This document shows, one piece after another, positions 33,843 through 47,606 of a DNA stretch of 64,000 nucleotides. Origin of the DNA: Syncephalis plumigaleata. Its lineage: Eukaryota; Zoopagomycota; Zoopagomycetes; Zoopagales; Piptocephalidaceae. The DNA lies in the NCBI GenBank assembly GCA_025201365.1, contig JAIXMF010000001.1:1426001-1490000 (forward strand). Direction: 5' to 3'. The translations under genes and the position numbers were made by a program. How positions within the stretch are numbered: the first letter of the stretch is position 1; each line of letters begins with the position of its first letter. A model generated the notes under the pieces. It was not told the origin of the DNA. It was given only the letters and a program-made list of their open reading frames with translations, and did not search any database.

Positions 33843-36800
33843 ATGGCATCAGTTGCTACTTGCCCGCATTTGGAGAGTCAAAAGCTGACACCACCATCTG
33901 CATACACGCTAGTCTATCGTGAAGAGTGTACGCAATGCTTCGATACCGTGGTAAGTAGCCATGGATTACGTCTTAGTGGTAGGGTGGCGAGAGCACTAAC
34001 GGGTACGCGTTGAACATAGGATACCGAGGAAGGACTCGATGTTTGTCTATCGTGTTTTAACGGTGGCTGCACACATTCAGACCGTGCTCATGCGCGTAAA
34101 CATGCCGAGAAGAGACAGCATCCAATCGTGTTGAATATTCGTCGTCGTCCTAAAGTAGGCCGTGTAAGTAGAATATCGTGATGATGCTATATGAACTTAC
34201 CTGCTTGCTTGTTTGCTTGTTATTAATCAATCGTCCACTCACTATAAATAGGATGATGAACCACCTCAGAAGATAACTCGTCTAGCCATCGTGGAGGAGA
34301 GAGAATCCGATAAATACACGTATGACACGCGTGTCCGATGCTTATTCTGTCCGGATCAATCTCTAGAGATGACACCACAGGTAATGCATACATATATACA
34401 GATGCAATTATAGAGTGCGAGTAAACTGATCATTGTAATTCATTGCGCTGCATTCTAGCTAAACACGGTGGTTGAAGGAGTAATGTCCGCGTTAACAGCG
34501 AGTAAACAATCAGAAGTCAAAGCATGGGAGGCTGAGATTGTTCCATGCGAGCATATTCATCAGTTAGTACAAGTCGAGCGAGTTGCATTAAGCGAGCAAA
34601 GTAAGATGCGTCTATACGCTTTGACAATCATCAATGATGATATTAACCAATCGAACTCCTATGAATGTAGCACTTGCTCATTGCAGCCAATGCGAGCTAG
34701 ACAAGAATCTATGGCTTTGTCTTACTTGCGGCAATCTAGGCTGTGGTCGTCGTCAATACGATGGCAGCGGTGGCAACGGACATGGCTTGGAACATTTCAC
34801 GCAAACTGGACATGCATTATCGTGTAAACTTGGTACAATCACGCCAGAAGGCACCGCCGATGTCTACTGCTATCTGTGCGACGATGAACGTCTAGATCCG
34901 GATATCGCGCAACATTTGGGTCATTTTGGTATTCAGATTGACTCGCAACAGAAAACAGAGAAAAGCATGGCAGAATTGGTAAGAGCATATCCACTCTTCC
35001 TCTCACTCGATAGAATGACTCATATGTGCATGTACATTGCTCTCATTAGCAATTGGAACAAAATCTTAAATTCGATTTTAGTATGACTACAGAAGATGGA
35101 CGTCAATTAACACCACTATTTGGATCTGGTCTCACCGGATTGAAGAATCTCGGTAATAGGTAAGCATGAAGCAATATTATACTAGTATTTACTGGTAATA
35201 GACATGACACATTAATACAAATGAATCATTATCTAGTTGTTATATGGCTTCTGTAATTCAATCATTATTTGCTTTACCCGCTTATCAACAACGGTAAGTT
35301 ACAGAAATGTAATATTTACTGAATGCCTCATTAACAGAATGTGATAGTTACAATACACAGGATAAAGTATTGCATGAAGCGCAATGTGATAAATCACCGG
35401 CACAATGTTTCCATTGTCAAATGTATAAAATGGCCGATGGTCTATGGAGTGGTCGTTATTCAGTGCCTAGTACATTGAAGGAAAGCAATCAACAAGGAAC
35501 TACTGCCAATAATAATAATGATGAACATCGTGGTCAACATGGTATTGCACCATTCATGTTTAAATCGTTAATTGGCAAGGATCATCAAGAGTTCTCGACT
35601 ATGCGTCAACAGGTAGTGACATGGCCATATTGTTAATTGCTATACGCTAATCTTGCTATATCGTATGTCTAGGATGCATTTGAATTCTTCCAACATTGGA
35701 TCAAGATAACTGAACAGCAGGAACGTGTCACCGGACAGGATCCTACGAAATGTTTCCAGTTCGAATTAGAAGAGCGTCTACAATGTTTAAAGTGTAAACG
35801 AGTACGCTACACTAGACAGCCTACAACGTGTCTTCAATTGCCAGTACCTAAGCAGCCATCATCGGAGAATAAGGATGAATATGCACCGGTTCCGTTGGAG
35901 CAATGTTTCACGGCATTCAAGACTGAAGAGTATTTGAACTGGAAGTGCTCCGAATGTCAAGAGACGACAACGATTACCAAGTAATAATGAGTGTACATTC
36001 TAGCGATGTTAGTTGATTATTAACTTGTGTGTACCTTTGATATTCTAGATCAACACGACTAGCTTCATTCCCATCTGTACTCGTTGTTTGTCTACGTCGA
36101 TTCGAGTTTCGTAACTGGGTCCCGATCAAACTGAGTAAGTAGCGTATCACTTATTACTATTACTAGTGTCTAATGCGTCATTAGGTGTACCGGTTGTCTT
36201 GCCGGAAAAGACATTTAGCTTGGAGAGTATACAAGGTCATGGTAAACAGCCAGATGAAGAACTATTACCAGAAAGCAATGGTAATCTTATACTATGATAT
36301 CAATGATGTAGTATTGACAACAAGTATTCTAGATAAAGTGGAACAAAAGGTGGATGAGAATCTACTAGCCATGATGTTATCGATGGGATTGCCCGAATCA
36401 CATTGTCGTGCCGGTCTATTGGCCACTGGTAATAACAGTGCAGAATTAGCATTAGCATGGTGTTTCGAGAATCCCGAACAATCAAGTACAGGTGCGTGTA
36501 TTGATAGGGAAACAAATGAAATATATATATATACAATTTAACTTACTATCACTATTACTATTGCTATGGTAGATGCATCATCTGCTGATGTTCCTATGGA
36601 ATCAGTAGTGATGTTGATGGATATGGGTTTTACAGAGGCTCAAGCTCGAAAGGCACTACGTGAGACAGTAAGTAACATATTTGAATGGTAATAGTCATAG
36701 TAATAATCATCATTATAATGAATGTAGGATAACAATATGGAACGAGCTGTTGAATGGCTGTTTAGTCATCCGGAAGAGACAGGCGATGACACTGCACCAG

Positions 36801-37111
36801 CTGTATCATCTGGCAAGTATTGATATATGATCTAGTTTATACTAGGCTGACTATATTAATTGATGAATTACGATATAGATATGACTGAGGATGGCAATAA
36901 TACGACAAATGTCTATCATGGATCCACCAACTATCGCGTAACGAGTATTGTATCGCATCGAGGTACATCCGTTCATTGTGGTCATTATGTAGCACATATC
37001 AATAAGGATAACAACTGGGTGCTATTTAATGATAACAAAGTGGTAGAAGCGGGTGCACTACCTGAATCTGACATGTACGTTCTTGTATTGGAGCGTGTCG
37101 ATAATGCGTAA
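33843..37111 (+). CDS. UBP14: Ubiquitin carboxyl-terminal hydrolase 5/13 (UBP14) family
   Basis: Deubiquitinase that disassembles free ubiquitin chains. Fifteen exons (33843-33950 through 36879-37111) give about 774 residues, close to yeast Ubp14. Domain order: variant zinc finger (CTQCFDTV, CLSCFNGGCTHSDRAHARKH), canonical ZnF-UBP (CSQCELDKNLWLCLTCG, GHGLEHFTQTGHAL, YCYLCDDE), catalytic Cys box GLKNLGNSCYM, UBA1 (MMLSMGLPESHCRAGLLATG), UBA2 (LMDMGFTEAQARKAL) and catalytic His box HRGTSVHCGHYVAHI, followed by WVLFND. All phases agree. The exon starting at 35348 was set by frame (CGT-TAC-AAT after the TAG). The last intron, 36813-36878, has a GC donor (GCAAGT). There are no signs of decay. Confidence 0.95.
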
Positions 37112-38784
37112 TAAATACAGTGTTTTTCCATCCAAATTGCGCATTTATCCTTTAACATTTGCCGTTTATTAATAAACTTGCATAATTAAACACCATTATC
37201 ACCATAGAAATGCCAATTGATACAGCATGATAATAATAACAATTCAGTATTTGGTAATGGATCCTATATTGATAGCGATAACTATCATCATCAATTCTAT
37301 AAGGTAGATGATACAAGTGTACTAGTATAGTTGGATATTGCCATGTCATGTACCTACAAGTAGTAATAAACTAGTATGATAGATAAATTATGATGATAGT
37401 GCTTACAATTGAGTGCATCGAGAGCAACGAGTGAACAAATAGAATACACGATAAACAATGTAATAAACAAGCAGTAACTAGTAGAATGACTGAGTTGTCA
37501 CAAACGAGCAAGGAATGAGCGAGGAAGGGTGCATGAACACGTAGGTCAGTTTATTGGAAGAAGCAGTGTATGCTTGTAGATAGATAGAGTATGTAGATGG
37601 CAGTAAACAAATGAAAATACAAATAAAAGCATGACGTAAGGGTGGCATACAAACAGATGACGGAAAAGAGTGGTAAAAGTAAAAGGTACATATTACAACG
37701 AGAGTAGTGAACGCTTAAACATTGATAAATAAGCAGGACAGTGATAGAAAACAAAAGACTAGAACGAACAATAAACAAGGCTTATTGGTATAGTAATAAT
37801 AATAACGACAAGTGAGCATGTAGATAGGATAGAGGAAGAGGAAAACAAAGAGATAAATAAACGACATAGAGATAGTATGGCAGAATAGCTGCTATTGGGA
37901 ATGTGTATGTTAAAGTGAAAGAGGAAGTAAGTGGAATGTGAATGACACGAAGAAGACGCGTATTACTGAGAAAGTAAAAGGAATAACTAGCATATAGTTA
38001 AGAAGAAGTGGACGCGTATTGTTTACTGACAAGTGGAATGTAGTTGACACAAAGAAGTGTGTTACTGAATGACAAGGGAAGTGAGATTAGCACGAAGAAG
38101 ACAGCATTGGTAAAGAGAGAGAAAGAGAAAGAATGCTTTCATTGACTAATAAAGAAAATTAAGAGTTTATACATCAGTCGATAATGAGGAATGAAAATAT
38201 ATTGTCATTGGTAACGAAGTAAAGGAGGAGGAAATAATGTAGATAATGAAGTAAAGGGAAAGGGGAAAGAGAAGCAACAATGAGATGGATACTTGGAAGT
38301 GGATTGGTAAAGCACTAACAACAGTTAGTAAAGTGTTAACAAATAGTTAAGGAGAGATTGCTAATGGAGGCATTAGTAGAAGTTAATAAATCTATTAGCA
38401 CCCATTACAAGACTCTGTTCATTTATTAATAACGAATCTTTCATTAATAAAGTGTTAACAAGTTCATTAGTACTTATTAATGCTTATTGATTGCTGTGTT
38501 CTAAGCGGCGTTATACCATTGCTACAATGACACTAGATGATACAAATCTTACTGTGTTGCGCTGTAAATGATACTACTTACCATAATAGATTCACCCTTT
38601 CTGTATGTGTCTGCACGAGCGTTTCACCCCTACGTCATCAGGTCCGCGCAGTTAGTACTACCAACACGCCACGTATATAAAGAAGCGTCTATACTACAAT
38701 AAAATAAAAGATTAATTAACCCTTCATATTGTAACTGTGCTTGTTTTAACATACTGCTTCTATATTGATTACTATCCATTTTTC
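37112..38784. other. 5' flank of the Fanzor gene, with imperfect repeats
   Basis: 1.67 kb without a gene. It is purine-rich from 37.8 to 38.3 kb. It holds imperfect copies of a phrase like AAGTGGAATGT..TGACAC.AAGAAG at about 37929, 38031 and 38079, and two copies of AAAGTGTTAACAA at about 38329-38341 and 38449-38461. A TATA box sits at 38674. Confidence 0.5.
38674..38681 (+). promoter_or_regulatory. TATA box of the Fanzor gene
   Basis: TATATAAA about 110 nt upstream of the ATG at 38785, so the gene carries its own host-like promoter signal. Confidence 0.55.
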
Positions 38785-41014
38785 ATGGCGTCACAGCCAG
38801 GCACTAATGGCTCGTCTACTTCTGCCAACAGTGGACGAGTTCTGGCTGTGAAGTCTTCTATCTCCGGCATTGGTTGGAAGAAGGAGCGTCGCGGTGCTTT
38901 ACGCGACTTTGTAAACATCGTGCACACCACGACCTTCCATGCTTATGCCTTCGCAAAATATATATTCCTTAAAGAACATAATAAGCGAAACTTTAAGTTC
39001 GAAAATTATATTCGTGAAGACTTCTTCAAACAAGTATGGCTTTCCTTAATCAAGCGTACGGAAAAAGGCACGACCAAAGAAAAAACGGTTCGACATCGCA
39101 AATTCATCAAGAAGCATCTCAAAGACTACCTTAAACTTACTGGCTATCAACCGCCGGTTTTAGCCTATGCCGATCAGTCAGCTACTTATGAGGCAACGAA
39201 GATGTACGTTGCTTACACCAACAACGTCAGATTGCGTTTTGGCGAGTTCCTTCGGCGTGCTATTAACAAGTTTTTCGATGTCAAGGAGAAGCTAAAAGAT
39301 ATGAGGAAGGAGATGCTAAAGGATATGAAGAAGGAATTGCCCGAGGATGTAAAAGCTGATGAGCTTCGCGCGAGAACCAGTGCTATCACTGCTCCAGCAA
39401 GAACATTCAAGCACGAAATAGCACATCGAGGGGGGATTGAAGCGTTGGCTAAAAAGGATCGCGCATTTACCAGAGCATTCAGCAAATTCAAAAATGTTTT
39501 AAATGCTTACGATAAACGTTACGACTTTGGTAAAAACGGCCTTTATTACGACTGTAAAGAAAACCCGGTGAAGCACTTTAAGGCGTTCTTTGAGCTTGCG
39601 CGCGTGTTCCCTCGCATCCATTTGAAGGCTTTCAACTGCTTCCCCCTGCGTCGTTCGTTTTCGCCATGCTACGTCCATATCGACACAGTTATTCTTTGCC
39701 ACAACATATTAGGACGCAAGTTTGAGAATATGGACCATATGAGGGAATATTGGAACGATGCCGTGAACCTTAAGTCAAAGCCACTTAGAAAGCAAAAGGG
39801 TGGTGAACTCAAGTTTTCTGGCTCGATTGAGACCGATGGCGTTGGTGTCACGGTCATCAAAAAGGGCATCGAGAAGGTCACCGAGGAAGGGGGAGCGAAA
39901 TCAGCAAAGGATCCCTTCCCGTATATCAGTAAATTAAAAGCTGATGATCACAAGGCAATCGACGGCAAATGCGTGGCGGTGGACCCGGGAAGAAGGAACT
40001 TACTGTTTTGTGTACACGAAAACTCGACAGTGGAAGAGAAGCGCAAATATCGGTACACGAAACTACATCAAGACAAGATGCGGAGGACGAAGAAATACCG
40101 CAAGATTCGCGAGGACTGCAAGAAGGGGAACAAGGCGGTGCAGGATGCCGAGGCAGCTCTTTCAAAAGCCCAGGGCAACACTGTATCACTGGTGAATTAT
40201 AAGAAATATCTGAAGTATCGAGCACAGCACACAGATGTTCTCACCAGCTTTTACAAAGATACTCTCACCCTCCCCTCCGACCATTCTGCCCAACATCCTC
40301 TCTTCAGGAAGTTGAAATTGTCAGCCTACATCAGCAAGCAGCAAAGTGATCAAAAGCTGATTGATGACTTAAGGGAGAAATTCGGTGGGGATGCAGCATT
40401 TGTGATGGGGAACTGGTCCGCTCCTCACACCAAATACCACGAGCCCATACGTGGTATTGGCTTTAGAAGGCTTTTGAAACGACACGGGTTTAAAGTCTTT
40501 CTAATCGACGAGCACAAGACCAGCAAGTGCTGCCCAGCCTGCAACAATCCCACCCTCGAGAAATTCAAGCCAGTCGCGAATCCTCGGTCGAAGCAACATG
40601 AAGACAGCCATAAAATTATCTGTCATGGTCTTTTAAGGTAAGTACAATTTATTACACTTTGCTATTTATCATGATATATTAATTAATTATTTTATTAGAT
40701 GCACACATCAAACTTGTAATAAAGCCATGAAAGATATAAAGGCTAAGAAGGAGCGAGAGGGCAAGCTGGAGGTGGATTATAAAGAGGATCCGGAATTTAA
40801 CAGATTCGAGTATCGTTTATGGAATCGGGATATGGCTGCATGTCTGAATTTTATTCAGATTATTCGCAGTGTTCGTAAGGACAACCTTATTCCAACACAA
40901 TTCCAACGAAGTGCCGTTTCTCCTTCTGATCATGGTACATCCGCAAAGCATTCACTAAATGAAGATCAAGATGGACAAGATCAAGAGGGATCCAAACAAC
41001 AAATTACAAATTAA
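38785..41014 (+). CDS. Fanzor RNA-guided RuvC nuclease (eukaryotic TnpB relative)
   Basis: Intact 722-residue Fanzor in two exons, 38785-40637 and 40699-41014, joined by a 61-nt GTAAGT...TTAG intron (phase 2). Fanzors are eukaryotic TnpB homologues that cut DNA guided by an RNA encoded at the 3' side. The RuvC-like nuclease shows D400 in CVAVDPGRRN, the segment GNWSAPHTKYHEP (542-554), E576 in LIDEHKTSKCC and D662 in RDMAACLN. The Glu lies in the DExxTS motif, the relocated position known for Fanzors, not the classic RuvC-II place. The zinc ribbon has C583/C586 and C619/C624 and is split by the intron. The N-terminal 370 residues are basic and helical, fitting the wedge/recognition part. An upstream GTG at 38737 in the same frame is not used. 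No transposase lies beside it. Confidence 0.93.
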
Positions 41015-41288
41015 CCAGGTTGTATCGTCAACCGCCACACTGTCGCCCAAACGACAATGGCACCCAAAATACGGAGTAGTAATACTTGTAAGTGTTAAAT
41101 ATCATTTATTCGTAAAAACAGAAGGCTAACTACGCAAATTGGATGGACAAAGCCTGTACATAAGCAATTTTATTATGAATAAATAATTGTCGTGTTTTTT
41201 ACCTTTTATTTCCCTATTTATTTATATATTTCTAAACGCGATTGGTTTCGTATTTCGTTATTCATTGAACACGGAATCTAGTTTGACC
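41015..41288 (+). ncRNA. Candidate Fanzor guide RNA (omega/fRNA) region and MSH2 promoter
   Basis: Noncoding DNA from the Fanzor stop to the MSH2 start. In characterised Fanzors the guide RNA derives from the sequence overlapping or following the 3' end of the gene. Here a perfect 5-bp stem with 6-nt loop (TGTCG-CCCAAA-CGACA, 41041-41056) lies 27 nt after the stop, in a stretch richer in GC than its surroundings. The extent, strand and function are inferred only. The same 274 nt must also include the MSH2 promoter. Confidence 0.35.
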
Positions 41289-41593
41289 ATGAACATAGAA
41301 AAGCCGGAACTTGAACTTGGTAAGTATGCTCTGTACCGAGTATATGAGAATAGACTGTGAGTAGAAGAAGCAAGCGTGCTAATACAACGATAGACCAATC
41401 TACAACTCAGGGATTTTGTCAACAGTACCGACAATTACCACAGGTAAGCAACGTGACAGAATAGATCTATTGGCTTACCTAATAACATGATTGATGTATA
41501 GAAACCTGAACATACTATTCGGTTCTTTGAACGTAACAATGGTGTAAGTTACTATGTTACTAGTATATATATATATTACATGCGAGCAATATC

Positions 41594-41625
<32 letters not shown>

Positions 41626-44600
41626 GGATTTCTATAGTGTCCATGGTGAGGATGCACTCTACGTGGCCGATACACTTTATAAAACTACCGGTGTACTCAA
41701 ATATCTAGGTGGTAAGTGGCTAGTGAATAGAAGGGGATAACAGATGATTGACGAAGGCATAGGTAATATAACCACGGGTATTCCTAGCTGTACGCTATCT
41801 AAAGTCACTGCCGAATCATTTTTACGCGATCTTCTGACGAGACTTCAATATCGCGTTGAAATATGGGCAACTGAATCGAAGAAGAATCAATCGTGGTATT
41901 TGTCGAAACAGGTATGACACACTGATGATTGATGTCTATGAATAGATGATTAAACATGTAACTAGGCATCACCGGGCAATCTACAAGCGGTAGAAGACAT
42001 GTTATTCAATAATGCAGAAGTGACATCTCCACCGGTAGTCATGTCTATTTGGCTCAATAAGGATGCTAATAATCAATTGGTAAGTAATATATACTGCTGT
42101 TATTGTTATTAATTGATTCTTTAGCATGTTGGTGTTTGCTTTGTCGATACCACGCAACGTACACTTGGTGTATGTGAATGGATTGACAATATACTCTTTA
42201 CCAATGTAGAGGTAAGTGTAAACAATATAATAATATTCATAATAATAACATAATAATAACATAATCTATATGTACACGATTAGGCACTAGTTATTCAGTT
42301 AGGTGTAAAGGAATGTGTTCTACCCAAGACAGAAGCAGGCAAACAATATGAACTTGGCAAATTACGCGCGGTACTTGATAGAAATGGCGTTTTACTTACG
42401 GATTTATCACAAAGTATTTCATTTGCATAGTGGCAGTAATGATGAATACTAACAATCAACTTACACTGCTTCTACTCTCATTAGGTGCATTCCGTACTAC
42501 ACATGTTGACCAAGATCTACAACGATTATTAGGCGATACCTATCAGATTAGTCAAAGTAATGAGCAGTCATTGTTGATTTATTTAGATATACTAAGTGTG
42601 TGTGTGTGTCTATTCTATAGATGATATGGAAATGAAGTCAGCATTGGCAGCCACGGCTAGTCTAATTCATTATTTGGAGGCAAGTGTCGAGATAATAGCA
42701 AACTAATATTTTAATATAGTTACTGGCAGATGAAACCAACTACGGCTATTATTTACTACGACGACATGAACTATCGCAATTCATGCGGTTAGACAGTGCT
42801 GCCGTTCGTGCCTTGAACCTCATGCCATCAGCTGGTCAAACAAGTAGGAATAGATAGATAGATAGATATAGATGAACAGTGATCTGTTAATGAACTAATG
42901 AGGTAATCAATAGATCAAGCAGTCGTCAGTAGTGTATTTGGTCTACTGAATCGATGTCGCACTGCACAGGGTACACGACTATTGGCACAATGGCTAATGC
43001 AACCATTACTTGATATTAAGGAGATAGGTAAGCAATCTAGTAGATGACAAGTTGAATAATGGAATAATATGAATACTGCTTATTATTATTACTATGTAGA
43101 GAAACGACATACTCTAGTGGAGTTATTCGTCAATAATACTACATGTCGACAAACATTACAGGTAATTGAGAATGTTAAATTGGCTATATTTACACTAATG
43201 ATTGATTCATTGATGTAATAAATAGGATTTACACTTGAAACGAATGCCTGATTTACATCGTTTATCGAAACGACTACAACGAGGCACGGCCACTCTTCAG
43301 GTAATTCAAATAAATAAATAGAAGAGATAACATTCGATAACTGATTATTACTCATTGAATACAGGATGTAGTACGTGTCTATCAGGTACTCATACAATTG
43401 CCGTTGATGTTGGAAGCGTTAAGGGAAGTCGAGTATCCATCGGAGGAACATCAAACACTCGTTGAAGTCACGTATATTCAACATCTAGAGGCAAGTATTC
43501 CATAATAGATCATTGATCATAGATAATAACCCGGTCAATTAGAGTTACCACGATCAATTGTCTAAGCTAAAGGAAATGATCGAGTTGACTATTGATCTCG
43601 AACAAGCCGATTATCATCAATACGTGATTCGTGCCAACTTCGATGAAGGATTACAAGGTAATAAGATGATCAGTTATGTAATAGAATAGCTAGTATTGAC
43701 AAACAATGATAGAATGCAAGGATAGATCAGATGGACTATTCAAAGAGATGCAAGACGAGTATAGACAGGTAAGCTATGCTATGCGGTATAGTTTAATGGC
43801 ATACAAGAAGATTAATGATGATGATGATTACTAGATGGCGCATCAATTACATATGGAGGAGGATAAAAAGATCAAGCTAGAAAAGTCAAATATATACGGA
43901 TACTGTTTCCGTATTACTAGAACTGTACGTTATCTCTAGTCATTCTATGTAGTGTAATAGTAACAATGACGATATCAATAGGAAGCTGGTGGACTAAGTA
44001 AGGCCAAGACTAAAGTGATTGAATTGGCAACACAAAAGGCGGGTCTCTACTTTACAACACCTCAATTGAAGCAATTAAGCGAAGCGTACACTGATACACA
44101 AGCGGAATATCAGCGTATTCAGTCAACATTGGTCAAGCAAGTCATTGAAATTGTTGGTAAGTTGCTTAGCAGTAATACTAGACGTGATGATATTGATAAC
44201 ACTTTGATTAGCCACCTACTGTCCTATTATGGAGAATCTAAACGGATTACTGGCTCATTTGGATGTGATTGTGTCGTAAGTGTATACGATAATGTAATAG
44301 TGTACGATATCTAACGGGTAATGACTATTGACAGATATGCTTACGTGGCAGTGCATGCACCCATACCGTATATTCGACCTGAAATGCATCCTAAAGGTAA
44401 ATCTATAAAGATTGGATAGATAGATAGATAGATAGATGGAATATCTGGCTAATGATGAGTAGACTATGGCAAAGTATCATTGGAGGATGCGCGACATCCA
44501 TGTCTCGAAGCATTAGATGGAATGACGGTCATTCCAAATGATATAGAATTACAACAAGGTACGCTATCAATGTCGATGATGATGATGATAGTAGTAGCTT

Positions 44601-45827
44601 ATATAAATGTATGTATATATAGGAAAACGAGACTTGCTACTTGTTACAGGTCCAAATATGGGTGGTAAAAGTACCTTTATTCGACAAGTAAGTGGAAATG
44701 AGATGTAGCAACTGAAGGCAATCATATACTAAATGGCAACTAGTTGGGTGTCATTGCTTTGATGGCACAAGCAGGTTCATTTGTGCCTTGTCGAAAGGCC
44801 ACACTAACAGTATTCGATGCAGTACTCGCTCGAGTGGGAGCAAGTGATAGTCAGTTGAAGGTAGTATATATATATATGATGGCAGATAAATCACTAGCTA
44901 GTGACTAATAGAGTGAACATCAAGGGTGTATCCACATTCATGGCAGAAATGCTTGAGACGGCAGCTATTCTACGAGTAAGTAAAAGTAGATAGGAATGAA
45001 TGAGTGAAATAATAATCAATGATGAATTAGGCTGCTACTCCTCATTCGTTAGTGATTATAGATGAGCTAGGTCGAGGTACAAGTACATTTGATGGATTCG
45101 GTTTAGCATGGGCTATCTCAGAGTAAGCAGTATACTAATCTCTAATGTAATGATGGTATGTTCTAACATACTACTGTACTATTAAATAGATTTATTGCCA
45201 AAGAGATTCGTTGCTGTTGTTTATTTGCTACGCATTTCCATGAATTGACACAGCTTGCTGATGAACTGCCCAATGTCGATAACTTACATGTCACCGCTCA
45301 TGCAGACGATAAAGGGCAAGGCATTACGCTATTATATAAAGTGAAACCAGGTAATTGATAGGGCCGCATGCTGACTACCACGACATGCTAACCATTCGAT
45401 TCATTAGGTGTATGTGATCAAAGTTTCGGTATTCATGTTGCTGAATGGGCCAACTTTCCATCATTAGTAGTTGATGTAAGTCCATTGCATGCCTATATAA
45501 TTATATAGGTTACTAATGATCATGATATCATGACTATTAGACGGCTCGTCGTAAAGCGATAGAACTTGAACAGACGGCAACGCATGATGGCACAACTACT
45601 CAGACAATTCTACCTGTAAGTATGGCTGTTAGTAAAAATGACACTCGATAGATTACTAAATATGAGTAATGCGCAATTAACTAATATGGTATCACTATTT
45701 CCAGATGTCGGAGCAACAAGCATGGCAAAAGATGCAAGCAATTATGGCCATTGATGATGTGGATTCGCTGTCGGATCAAGTATTACGCCAGCGTTTAGAG
45801 CAAGCGTTGAACTCGACCGCTTCTTGA
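41289..45827 (+). CDS. MSH2: DNA mismatch repair ATPase MSH2
   Basis: MutS homologue forming MutS-alpha/beta with MSH6/MSH3 in nuclear mismatch repair. I could thread 30 exons with matching phases, first 41289-41319 and last 45705-45827, for about 909 residues. Landmarks: domain I ([29 protein letters not shown]), lever/clamp ([33 protein letters not shown]), Walker [14 protein letters not shown], Walker [36 protein letters not shown] and [17 protein letters not shown]. Two introns start with GC (42680-42719, only 40 nt, and 43491-43542). One intron carries an AAT microsatellite. The reading frame is unbroken, in contrast to the frame-broken genes to the left. The stop lies only 117 nt before the next gene. 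Confidence 0.96.
41594..41626 (+). repeat. (AAT)n microsatellite inside an MSH2 intron
   Basis: About ten AAT units ending at the TAG acceptor of the fourth MSH2 exon (41627). Length changes here would move the branch site relative to the acceptor. Confidence 0.85.
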
Positions 45828-45944: not shown

Positions 45945-47606
45945 ATGACTGTTCAGGAACTATGGGCACGCTTACCCAATGAACTACTTCGCCGTGTACT
46001 ATTCTGCACGGATATTAAAACGGCAATTCGTTGTTTCGCTACTTGTCGGCGAATGTCCCTGTTCCTCGAGGATAATCAGCTATGGCGTCAGCTTTACTGG
46101 AACACCTTTAGTCATCATCCCTTGTATGAACATGAATGGCTCGCCGTTTATCAGCCGTATTATGAACAAGCGGGGCAAACAACTACCAAGCTTGCTATTC
46201 AATGGCGTCTAGCTACTAAGCATCGATTGTTAACGGAAGCGAATTGGTATCATAAACGTTACGTTGAATACCAGCATAAAGTGGAGATTGATACTACGAC
46301 GTTCGCGCGTAATGTCTATCTTTATACCGGTTCATCGGGTGCACTGCTCTATATATTGCCTTTGAAAAAGTTACAATTTGTTAGTCCAACACGGAATAAC
46401 CATGTCATGCCACTCTACTTTAGCGAGGGACACGATGACACACTGCCCGTGACTACACCCGGTTACTTGCGTGCCATGCTAGGTGCAAAGTATATCGTTG
46501 TAGCGTGTAGCGATAGAAGTACGGGGATAACTCAGTTGTTCGTGTGGCGAGCAGGCCAGCAAGTGCCGCTAATGTCAACCTATGTATCGCCCTATATTGC
46601 ACTTGATCAACTGGTGGATCGTTGGCTACTAACCTCAGTGGATGTCCGACGTATTAAAGGTACAACGAGTGAAATGCTTGACATCTACAGTCCTATGGTA
46701 AATGAACGCGAACCGCTCATGCCAATTGATGTCATGTCGGATAAAACGAGCGATTTATTCTTTGAGGTTTCGGTGATTAACGTGGAGACAGGCGATCTTA
46801 TCTATCAATTTCGACATGTAACATCGTTGTCTGTCCATTTGCAACTTGTAGACAATGCATTAAGACTGTTTCGTATTTGCAGATTATCATCATCATCACC
46901 ATCATCGACAACAACAGCTAGTGAAGCAGATACCGCAGAGCCAACCTATTGGCAATGGGAATCATGGCGATATGATGGCAAGCGTAGGAATGAATGTCGC
47001 GCAAAGGGTACCATTGAATTGTCGCATCATTATAATGAGCAAGTTTGCTCGCGTGATCTTACCGAGAATCGCGTACTACTTACTCGTGCACCATTTCCTG
47101 TGGGCAGTGACGACACTTATTCCGTACTGGAGATTGACGAGAATCAACAAAGCTCGACATCGACAGGTACTGGACAACGATTATGGACGGTAGCCGCACG
47201 AAATTACGATTTGGCATTACCGTTCGCTAATCGATTAGTAACATTTGGACGCGGTGAGGATTGTTGTCTTATCGACATTGAGACGGGTGAGATTAGGGAG
47301 ACCTACGCGGCAGGTTCCATCGATTGTATGGATTATGCCGTCGCTTCGTTATGTGTCGCGCAAGAGGGTGCCTCGCTAGCCATAATTGACGCGAAAACCG
47401 GCGAGAAAACAATGCTCGTCGAGAATTTGTACGATCCACGCGGTGGTTGGGGAACCCTTAAAAGTTGCGTTTACTACTGGCATCAAGGATCGACCGAGTT
47501 ACGTATTTTGGATTTTAACGCTAATCCACCATTAGGCAGTGAAATGGACAAAGTGAATACAGCACCTGATGAGTTGATGGTTCATGATTCATCGTGTATA
47601 GGGTAA
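45945..47606 (+). CDS. F-box-like protein with beta-propeller-like C-terminus
   Basis: Intronless 553-residue protein. Residues about 4-50 (LWARLPNELLRRVLFCTD, CFATCRRMS, NQLWRQLYWNTF) fit an F-box, the Skp1-binding motif of SCF ubiquitin ligases. The following 450 residues are rich in beta-strand-like repeats and may form a propeller or similar substrate-binding fold, but no canonical WD or Kelch signature is clear. A Ser/Pro/Thr low-complexity insert lies near residues 314-330. A substrate cannot be predicted. The gene follows MSH2 at 117 nt on the same strand. Having no introns next to a 30-exon gene is notable and could reflect a different gene history. Confidence 0.75.
   Translation: MTVQELWARLPNELLRRVLFCTDIKTAIRCFATCRRMSLFLEDNQLWRQLYWNTFSHHPLYEHEWLAVYQPYYEQAGQTTTKLAIQWRLATKHRLLTEANWYHKRYVEYQHKVEIDTTTFARNVYLYTGSSGALLYILPLKKLQFVSPTRNNHVMPLYFSEGHDDTLPVTTPGYLRAMLGAKYIVVACSDRSTGITQLFVWRAGQQVPLMSTYVSPYIALDQLVDRWLLTSVDVRRIKGTTSEMLDIYSPMVNEREPLMPIDVMSDKTSDLFFEVSVINVETGDLIYQFRHVTSLSVHLQLVDNALRLFRICRLSSSSPSSTTTASEADTAEPTYWQWESWRYDGKRRNECRAKGTIELSHHYNEQVCSRDLTENRVLLTRAPFPVGSDDTYSVLEIDENQQSSTSTGTGQRLWTVAARNYDLALPFANRLVTFGRGEDCCLIDIETGEIRETYAAGSIDCMDYAVASLCVAQEGASLAIIDAKTGEKTMLVENLYDPRGGWGTLKSCVYYWHQGSTELRILDFNANPPLGSEMDKVNTAPDELMVHDSSCIG

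Follow-up and report, generated by a model that had tools for sequence, protein, structure and literature searches.

A Fanzor1 gene on a TA-inserting Tc1/mariner-like element family in Syncephalis plumigaleata, with left-junction footprints possibly related to RNA-guided homing

The locus described here raises the question of what a Fanzor nuclease gene does between two host genes of the fungus Syncephalis plumigaleata, and whether it serves the host, the element that carries it or neither. The biological role of Fanzor proteins is given as unknown in the available parts of Saito et al. 2023 (PMC10432273), in which transposon propagation was proposed, also in trans for ghost loci; a genome in which one family has filled sites, some of them with an empty counterpart, and possible traces of repair makes this proposal directly testable. 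The sequence analysed, hereafter the window, is a stretch of 64,000 bp (C1:1426001-1490000), and the genome searched comprises 32.6 Mb in 383 contigs. Coordinates without a contig number refer to the window.

Upstream, on the forward strand, the C-terminal part of a gene for a USP5/UBP14-like ubiquitin hydrolase occupies 34625..37111 and codes for zf-UBP, UBA and UCH domains (match to human USP5, 3ihp, E 1.6e-11). The downstream gene, also on the forward strand at 41289..45300 (end approximate), starts 130 bp past the mobile element described below and codes for a MutS homologue with Walker and FATHFHEL motifs, a MutS_IV match below the Pfam cut-off (E 0.0014) and no PDB match for this fragment; from the meaning of the motifs we take it to be probably MSH2. 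Downstream of it, at 45945-47606, a 553-aa F-box protein (PF12937) is encoded.

The gene between these two consists of two forward-strand exons. Exon 1 (38785..40637) codes for REC, WED, most of RuvC and the first half of the zinc ribbon, including D400 and E576, with the domain names taken from the alignment to PpFz1 and SpuFz1; it is followed by a 61-bp spliceosomal intron (40638..40698, +, GTAAGT...TTATTAG), recognised by its GT...AG borders and the reading frame and found in the relatives as well, and by exon 2 (40699..41014) with the second half of the zinc ribbon, D662 and the C-terminal tail. The spliced product of 722 aa, its coordinates and its motifs are as the first-pass annotation had given them (DPGRRN at 400, GNWSAP at 542 and NRDMAACLN, which contains D662, at 660), further motifs being DEHKTS at 575, with E576, and CCPAC at 582. 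The annotation had also reported no internal stop or frame break, which holds once the intron is removed but not for the unspliced gene, where there is a stop at 40639-40641. Out of 20 relatives, L017, L019, L021, L023 and L026 were left out, as their best-matching open frame had no window-like start; under the exon-intron model of the window, 15 of the 16 copies, namely the window and 14 relatives, give an uninterrupted product, the exception being L014, which is disrupted by an insertion. The uninterrupted copies (n = 15, window included) splice to 711-771 aa, and the longer products may contain a further intron. The window and all 15 relatives compared have the gene's own TATA box, TATATAAA (38674..38681, +, 111 bp upstream of the ATG), in agreement with what had been noted at first.

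A phmmer search of the PDB at E values up to 1 returned Fanzor1 chains only (PpFz1 1.9e-117 and SpuFz1 2.8e-44, both far above chance, and GtFz1 0.015), which supports the original identification as a Fanzor; Pfam gave two sub-threshold matches, one to Cas12f1-like TNB (E 0.0063), the other to Synaptobrevin over residues 162-210 (E 0.078). In the phmmer alignment, the three acidic residues singled out in the annotation, D400, E576 and D662, are paired with residues 777, 935 and 1000 of the SpuFz1 chain, which at a constant offset of 394 are the catalytic D383, E541 and D606 (numbering as in PMC11423790 and PMC10432273). The protein also contains the motif D-X(125,275)-[TS][TS]XX-[C4 zinc finger]-X(5,50)-RD given for Fanzor1 in PMC3627910, represented by D400, T579 S580, C583, C586, C619, C624 and R661 D662 with spacings of 178 and 36, as well as the RuvC triad with DPG and an alternative Glu position (D400/E576/D662) which a legend in PMC10711439 names as a Fanzor1 trait. 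An AlphaFold model of exon 1 only, with D662 outside it, had a mean pLDDT of 53.8 and values mostly below 50 in the RuvC part, and all seven Foldseek matches obtained with this low-confidence model at E <0.001 were Fanzor1 structures. The closest solved sequence is PpFz1 from Parasitella parasitica (PDB 9cf0-9cf3; PMC11423790), with which the motifs and the triad are held in common; according to the accessible text of that report, PpFz1 has an FRI insertion of ~100 residues in RuvC which binds cyclophilin, whereas the window protein has 14 residues between the aligned blocks (492-507) as against ~112 in PpFz1. Judged from sequence, the gene is an intact (spliced) Fanzor1, an ordinary member of this group and a relative of the solved protein without the FRI domain.

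The description of the gene as sitting alone between two housekeeping genes did not hold, since it is the cargo of an element bounded by terminal inverted repeats (TIRs) and has relatives in the same genome. The whole Tc1/mariner-like element spans 4043 bp from TA to TA (37116..41158, +) and is inserted 4 nt after the stop codon of the USP5-like gene, its borders being set by BLASTN, by reading of the ends and by sister empty sites. With window 34000-45000 as the BLASTN query and 20 Fanzor loci with flanks, homology starts at 37109-37116 in 16/20 copies (later in L009, L013, L020 and L022) and ends at 41158-41163 in 18/20, with L019 stopping at 40861 and L009 continuing into a common flank. 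The ends are imperfect inverted repeats, TA followed by CAGTGTTTTTCCATCC on the left and GGATGGAAAAAGCCTG followed by TA on the right; the left TIR (LE, 37118..37152, +) is CAGTGTTTTTCCATCCAAATTGCGCATTTATCCTT and the right TIR (RE, 41122..41156, -), in minus-strand reading, is CAGGCTTTGTCCATCCAATTTGCGTAGTTAGCCTT. LE and RE differ at fixed positions (GCATTTATCC versus GCAGTTAGCC), so that copies can be oriented. In some copies a terminus of the opposite type is present, TACAGGC (right type) at left ends or TACAGTG (left type) at right ends, which suggests conversion between the two ends.

A protein search of the genome gave at least 106 exon-level matches, which were grouped by hand into ~40 Fanzor loci, counting second copies on small contigs. 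The TIR core was found 488 + 484 times with up to two mismatches (972 copies; 0 for the reversed control pattern), which means that most elements have no Fanzor gene. Thirty complete elements were obtained from the fetched loci, of which 16 are at Fanzor loci and measure 3988-5874 bp; the remaining 14, with lengths of 228-1153 bp, retain both termini and the right-end stretch of the Fanzor copies and are hereafter called ghosts. No transposase gene was seen within the element, where the 5' 1.67 kb is non-coding and its longest open stretch is 78 aa. There are 31 DDE_3 matches in the genome, and no transposase with the TIR of the Fanzor element was found, with one of the 31 examined; that one is nested in L026 and its TIRs differ. 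The nested insert, a 1.66-kb Tc1-like transposon with the TIR TACAGTGAGGGAAAGAATTG and an intact 380-aa transposase frame, breaks the Fanzor gene of L026 (C1:567400-576900) between the positions matching window 39011 and 39014, and was rejected as the mobiliser because of its different TIR. The 4.2-kb element L059 (C1:1009500-1013800) was likewise rejected as an autonomous partner: it is a ghost split by an 1141-aa ORF and accompanied by an 18-bp duplication of ghost sequence, and the ORF, judged by eye, reads like a non-LTR retrotransposon with reverse transcriptase and RNase H.

Empty sites were sought by joining the flanks of the 30 elements through a single TA and searching the genome with the products. 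Five of the 30 match well across the join, all of them from Fanzor-locus copies, with four clear empty counterparts (L026 on C85, 99%; L024 on C43, 96%; L012 on C13, 93%; L028 on C136, 93%) and a weaker one (L020 on C223, 88% over 92 bases). A single TA remains at the empty sites L061, L062 and L064, and 4 nt are deleted at that point in L063; comparison with these counterparts reveals the TA target-site duplication of Tc1/mariner elements. The same places thus occur both filled and empty in one assembly, probably as haplotypes, given that small contigs repeat the flanks of large ones. As separate observations, the flanks of the L016 insertion (C362) recur on C179:19995-20693 ~580 bp apart, as if a ghost-sized element stood in place of the 4-kb one, and C95:9703-9954 and C112:759346-759925 have common flanks around a ghost of ~250 bp on one and ~580 bp on the other, as if these ghosts shrink or get replaced in place.

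In the relatives described in PMC10432273 and PMC11423790, the omega-RNA derives from the right end of the element, and the Fanzor1 loaded with it cuts DNA adjoining a target-adjacent motif (TAM). The omega-RNA scaffold is predicted here at 41091..41158 (+), the right-end stretch common to the Fanzor copies and the shortest Fanzor-less copies, with position and length set by analogy with SpuFz1 and PpFz1; the PpFz1 omega-RNA, reported as 75 nt (PMC11423790), is close in length to the conserved right end. The predicted guide, following the published omega-RNA layout, is the host flank CATAAGCAATTTTATT (41159..41174, +), and the predicted TAM is ATA (37115..37117, +), composed of the left flank and the TA duplication. 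The omega-RNA search in Rfam gave a single match, to a snoRNA and at chance level (E 0.86). The right end is predicted to form a 5-bp stem, AGGCU/AGCCU, with variants in one arm being G-U tolerant and those in the other breaking the stem, and no compensatory pair was detected in 30 aligned ends or among the matches listed (100 of 346).

The flanks were sampled among the matches listed, i.e. 100 of 261 exact left-end and 100 of 212 right-end matches, of which 91 and 88 were left after removal of near-identical flanks. Among these listed matches, A is found at -1 in 56/91 left flanks versus 26/88 right flanks (p = 2e-5) and at -2 to -4 an A excess is likewise confined to the left (p = 0.007, 0.004 and 0.001), the two sides being alike in A from -5 to -8. 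This one-sided A-rich flank agrees with the ATN TAM reported for PpFz1 (PMC11423790), which fits the A-TA left flank of the window family. A transposase acting on palindromic TA would be expected to leave no one-sided A bias, whereas a TAM read from one side would. C occupies -1 in 20% of the left flanks, and the AAC-TA class (13/91 among the matches listed) may represent a second TAM specificity or a Fanzor subfamily.

The left junctions of some copies are altered in a particular way. Contig C354 carries the MutS-side flank of the window at 96% together with its left flank and thus holds the other copy of the window insertion. At the left junction of this copy the sequence is ...AATTAATA-CATAAGCGA-CTTTCCATCC..., in which nine right-flank-like bases take the place of the eight terminal LE bases; the right flank used for comparison is AATAAGCGA on C354 and CATAAGCAA in the window. 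A 9-bp MuDR-type duplication was rejected as the cause of the anomaly, as empty sites in this family show TA alone and the altered copies have a truncated left terminus. In the same region (C354:21600-28390), the left end and the match to window 38168 are ~5.7 kb farther apart than in the window, which implies an insertion, and a further insert of ~270 bp is located ~60 bp past the right end.

Pattern searches for left ends without the usual fourth base (40 matches) and without the first two bases (8 matches) produced 10 rows with the terminus replaced over ~8 bases, corresponding to 9 loci, as C223:1602336 and C374:1804 have the same replacing bases after different preceding flanks and were counted once. 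For left and right ends alike, the patterns require an intact inner TIR and a first position other than G, so that the survey covers ends of that kind, and the footprints are rare (9 loci versus 972 TIR-core copies). Eight of the nine loci were compared with their own right flanks, C112:1356068 having no right end within 281 bases, and in six of the eight the first 8 replacing bases agree with that flank at 6-8 positions, namely at all 8 in C1:2672940, C1:2365985 and C223:1602336 (L068), at 7 in C354 and C112:1920485 (L067), and at 6 in C1:2962725; L020 (3 of 8) and L069 (4 of 8) do not match. For the three loci on C1, the two ends were paired from the listings by orientation and a spacing of ~0.5-1.1 kb. 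Cross-pairs among the eight loci reach 5 at most (0/56 at 6 or above), and a single one of the 40320 possible pairings, the true one, attains the observed sum of 51/64. The replacing bases of L020 match, at 8 of 8, a related empty place on C223 (L065) which is a candidate allele.

At four of the six matching loci, target and left end have at least two T in common and the joint falls within these, as expected of microhomology joining. In L068 (C223:1602110-1602390), the host-side left flank ends in AAAGCCTGTA, the last bases of a right end, and this footprint may be a remnant of a tandem copy rather than of empty-site repair; when it is set aside, 5/7 match. Shorter cases were also found: ATGTG in L028 and TTGTG in C95/C112:759891 are the first five bases of their own right flanks, C90:8440 agrees at 4/5, and C366:2951 does not match its own right flank.

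Taken as a whole, we consider it probable that this Fanzor1 is carried by a non-autonomous TA-inserting Tc1/mariner-like element and that, with an omega-RNA from the right end and a guide from the flank, it brings about cutting of empty sites and their repair with the filled copy as template. The protein, the element borders, the TA duplication with its empty counterparts, the copy number, the one-sided A-rich flank and the left junctions built of right-flank sequence are observed in the genome, and the expression of the omega-RNA, the cleavage and the copying-based repair are the steps that we infer. Transcription of the right end would yield the omega-RNA scaffold and run on into the host flank, which would supply the guide, and with the right flank as guide the target would be the site without the element. 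The ribonucleoprotein would recognise such an insertion-free site by the TAM A-TA on the left and the right-flank target, and its cut would leave TAM-TA-target on the left side of the break. With the filled homologue as template, copying would begin at the right flank, cross the element and normally end in the left flank, so that repair would restore or spread the element; copying halted in the left terminus, followed by end joining, would give footprints of the type observed. Moves to new sites would presumably depend on a transposase in trans. SpuFz1 is reported to cut after target positions 16-17 and 20-21 (PMC10432273), beyond the 8-11 nt that the footprints retain, which calls for the assumption of some trimming. 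The same predicted logic, with a guide that stores the site of insertion and a nuclease directed against element-free copies, applies to retention and gene drive by bacterial TnpB (PMC11870625), where, according to the available text, it was demonstrated by experiment in bacterial plasmids, whereas here it is proposed from genomic evidence in a eukaryote.

A wider suggestion, which we make tentatively and with somewhat less than even confidence, is that in a eukaryote a Fanzor serves its own transposon family as a homing nuclease, in trans and for the ghosts as well, leaving ~8-11 nt of target at the left junction where copying stops at the left terminus. The cut would be made inside the guide target, the element would be copied in from the right side and a short microhomology would seal the break; as C354 and Fanzor-less ghosts have the footprint, the nuclease would act in trans for the whole family. 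The left footprints made of right-flank sequence, which would fit RNA-guided cutting of empty sites and copying of the element, are possibly the new part, no description of such footprints having been found in the titles and abstract openings seen for open-literature papers on Fanzor or TnpB. In L061, the empty counterpart of L026, a perfect 16-nt target with ATA persists beside the filled locus, which indicates that cutting is not efficient or not constant. Target differences in the four empty sites are in excess, at 6/64 positions versus 11/384 (p = 0.023), but the sample is too small to carry weight.

It is rather unlikely, though by no means far-fetched, that Fanzor1 is a cargo without any role in homing, that an ordinary Tc1/mariner transposase moves the element, and that the footprints come from repair of transposase-made cuts off an empty homologue or from reduced tandem copies. 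The CAG start of the TIR is of Tc1/mariner type and is accompanied by the TA duplication, DDE_3 transposases are present in the genome, empty templates exist, and the left flank of L068 terminates in right-end-like sequence, all of which this explanation would account for. Template-switch repair after excision should, however, affect both ends, and the mirrored search revealed an eight-base replacement in 0/79 right ends read as against 9 left-end loci; the A-rich flank is one-sided as well. TACAG stands in 71/79 of those right ends, and the other 8 depart from it by 1-3 letters or a single inserted base; there were 9 further right-end matches, 6 of them at places with near-normal ends.

Cutting of empty sites by the Fanzor, the reading preferred here, is opposed in another way by the view that the Fanzor genes are decayed passengers which are turning into pseudogenes and no longer act, which seems improbable to us. 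Signs of decay do exist, including a dN/dS of 0.68 for the window/C354 pair, eight stops within the match of the C146 copy (L021), a K in place of the catalytic E in L020, and the disruption of L026 by another transposon. Despite that, dN/dS over 105 pairs, computed for the 15 uninterrupted copies only, has a median of 0.44 (range 0.30-0.68), D400 is invariant in 15/15 exon-1 sequences with the catalytic E retained in 14, and both the TATA box and the intron are conserved. The intact triad and this median are compatible with the window Fanzor being active, as far as sequence can tell. That it is a domesticated host gene, retained between the USP5-like gene and the MSH2-like one because it serves the host, is very improbable: the frame is intact and the insertion is common to C354, which has the MutS-side flank at 96%, but the TIRs remain and 14 more uninterrupted copies occur among the relatives read.

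The window family follows the pattern published for SPu-1/SpuFz1 from Spizellomyces punctatus (PMC3627910, PMC10432273), which, as far as the available text of these reports goes, is likewise a Fanzor1 in a TIR element with putative TA duplications, with tens of Fanzor loci and many Fanzor-less ghosts, and with no transposase found between the TIRs. The conserved bases left of the left end are CA in SPu-1 and A or AAC here (PMC3627910, PMC10432273), and SPu-1 is described as ~2.1 kb with a single ORF, whereas the window element measures 4.04 kb, of which 1.67 kb is non-coding 5' sequence, and its gene has an intron. The Mucorales Fanzor1 elements ROr-4, PBl-3 and MCi-4 (PMC3627910) are also fungal and, in the account given there, without their own transposase, as here, but they were assigned to MuDR with 9-bp duplications, unlike the 2-bp TA seen at the empty sites in this genome. 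As regards ghosts, 134 are reported for S. punctatus, compared to several hundred here as estimated from the 972 TIR-core copies.
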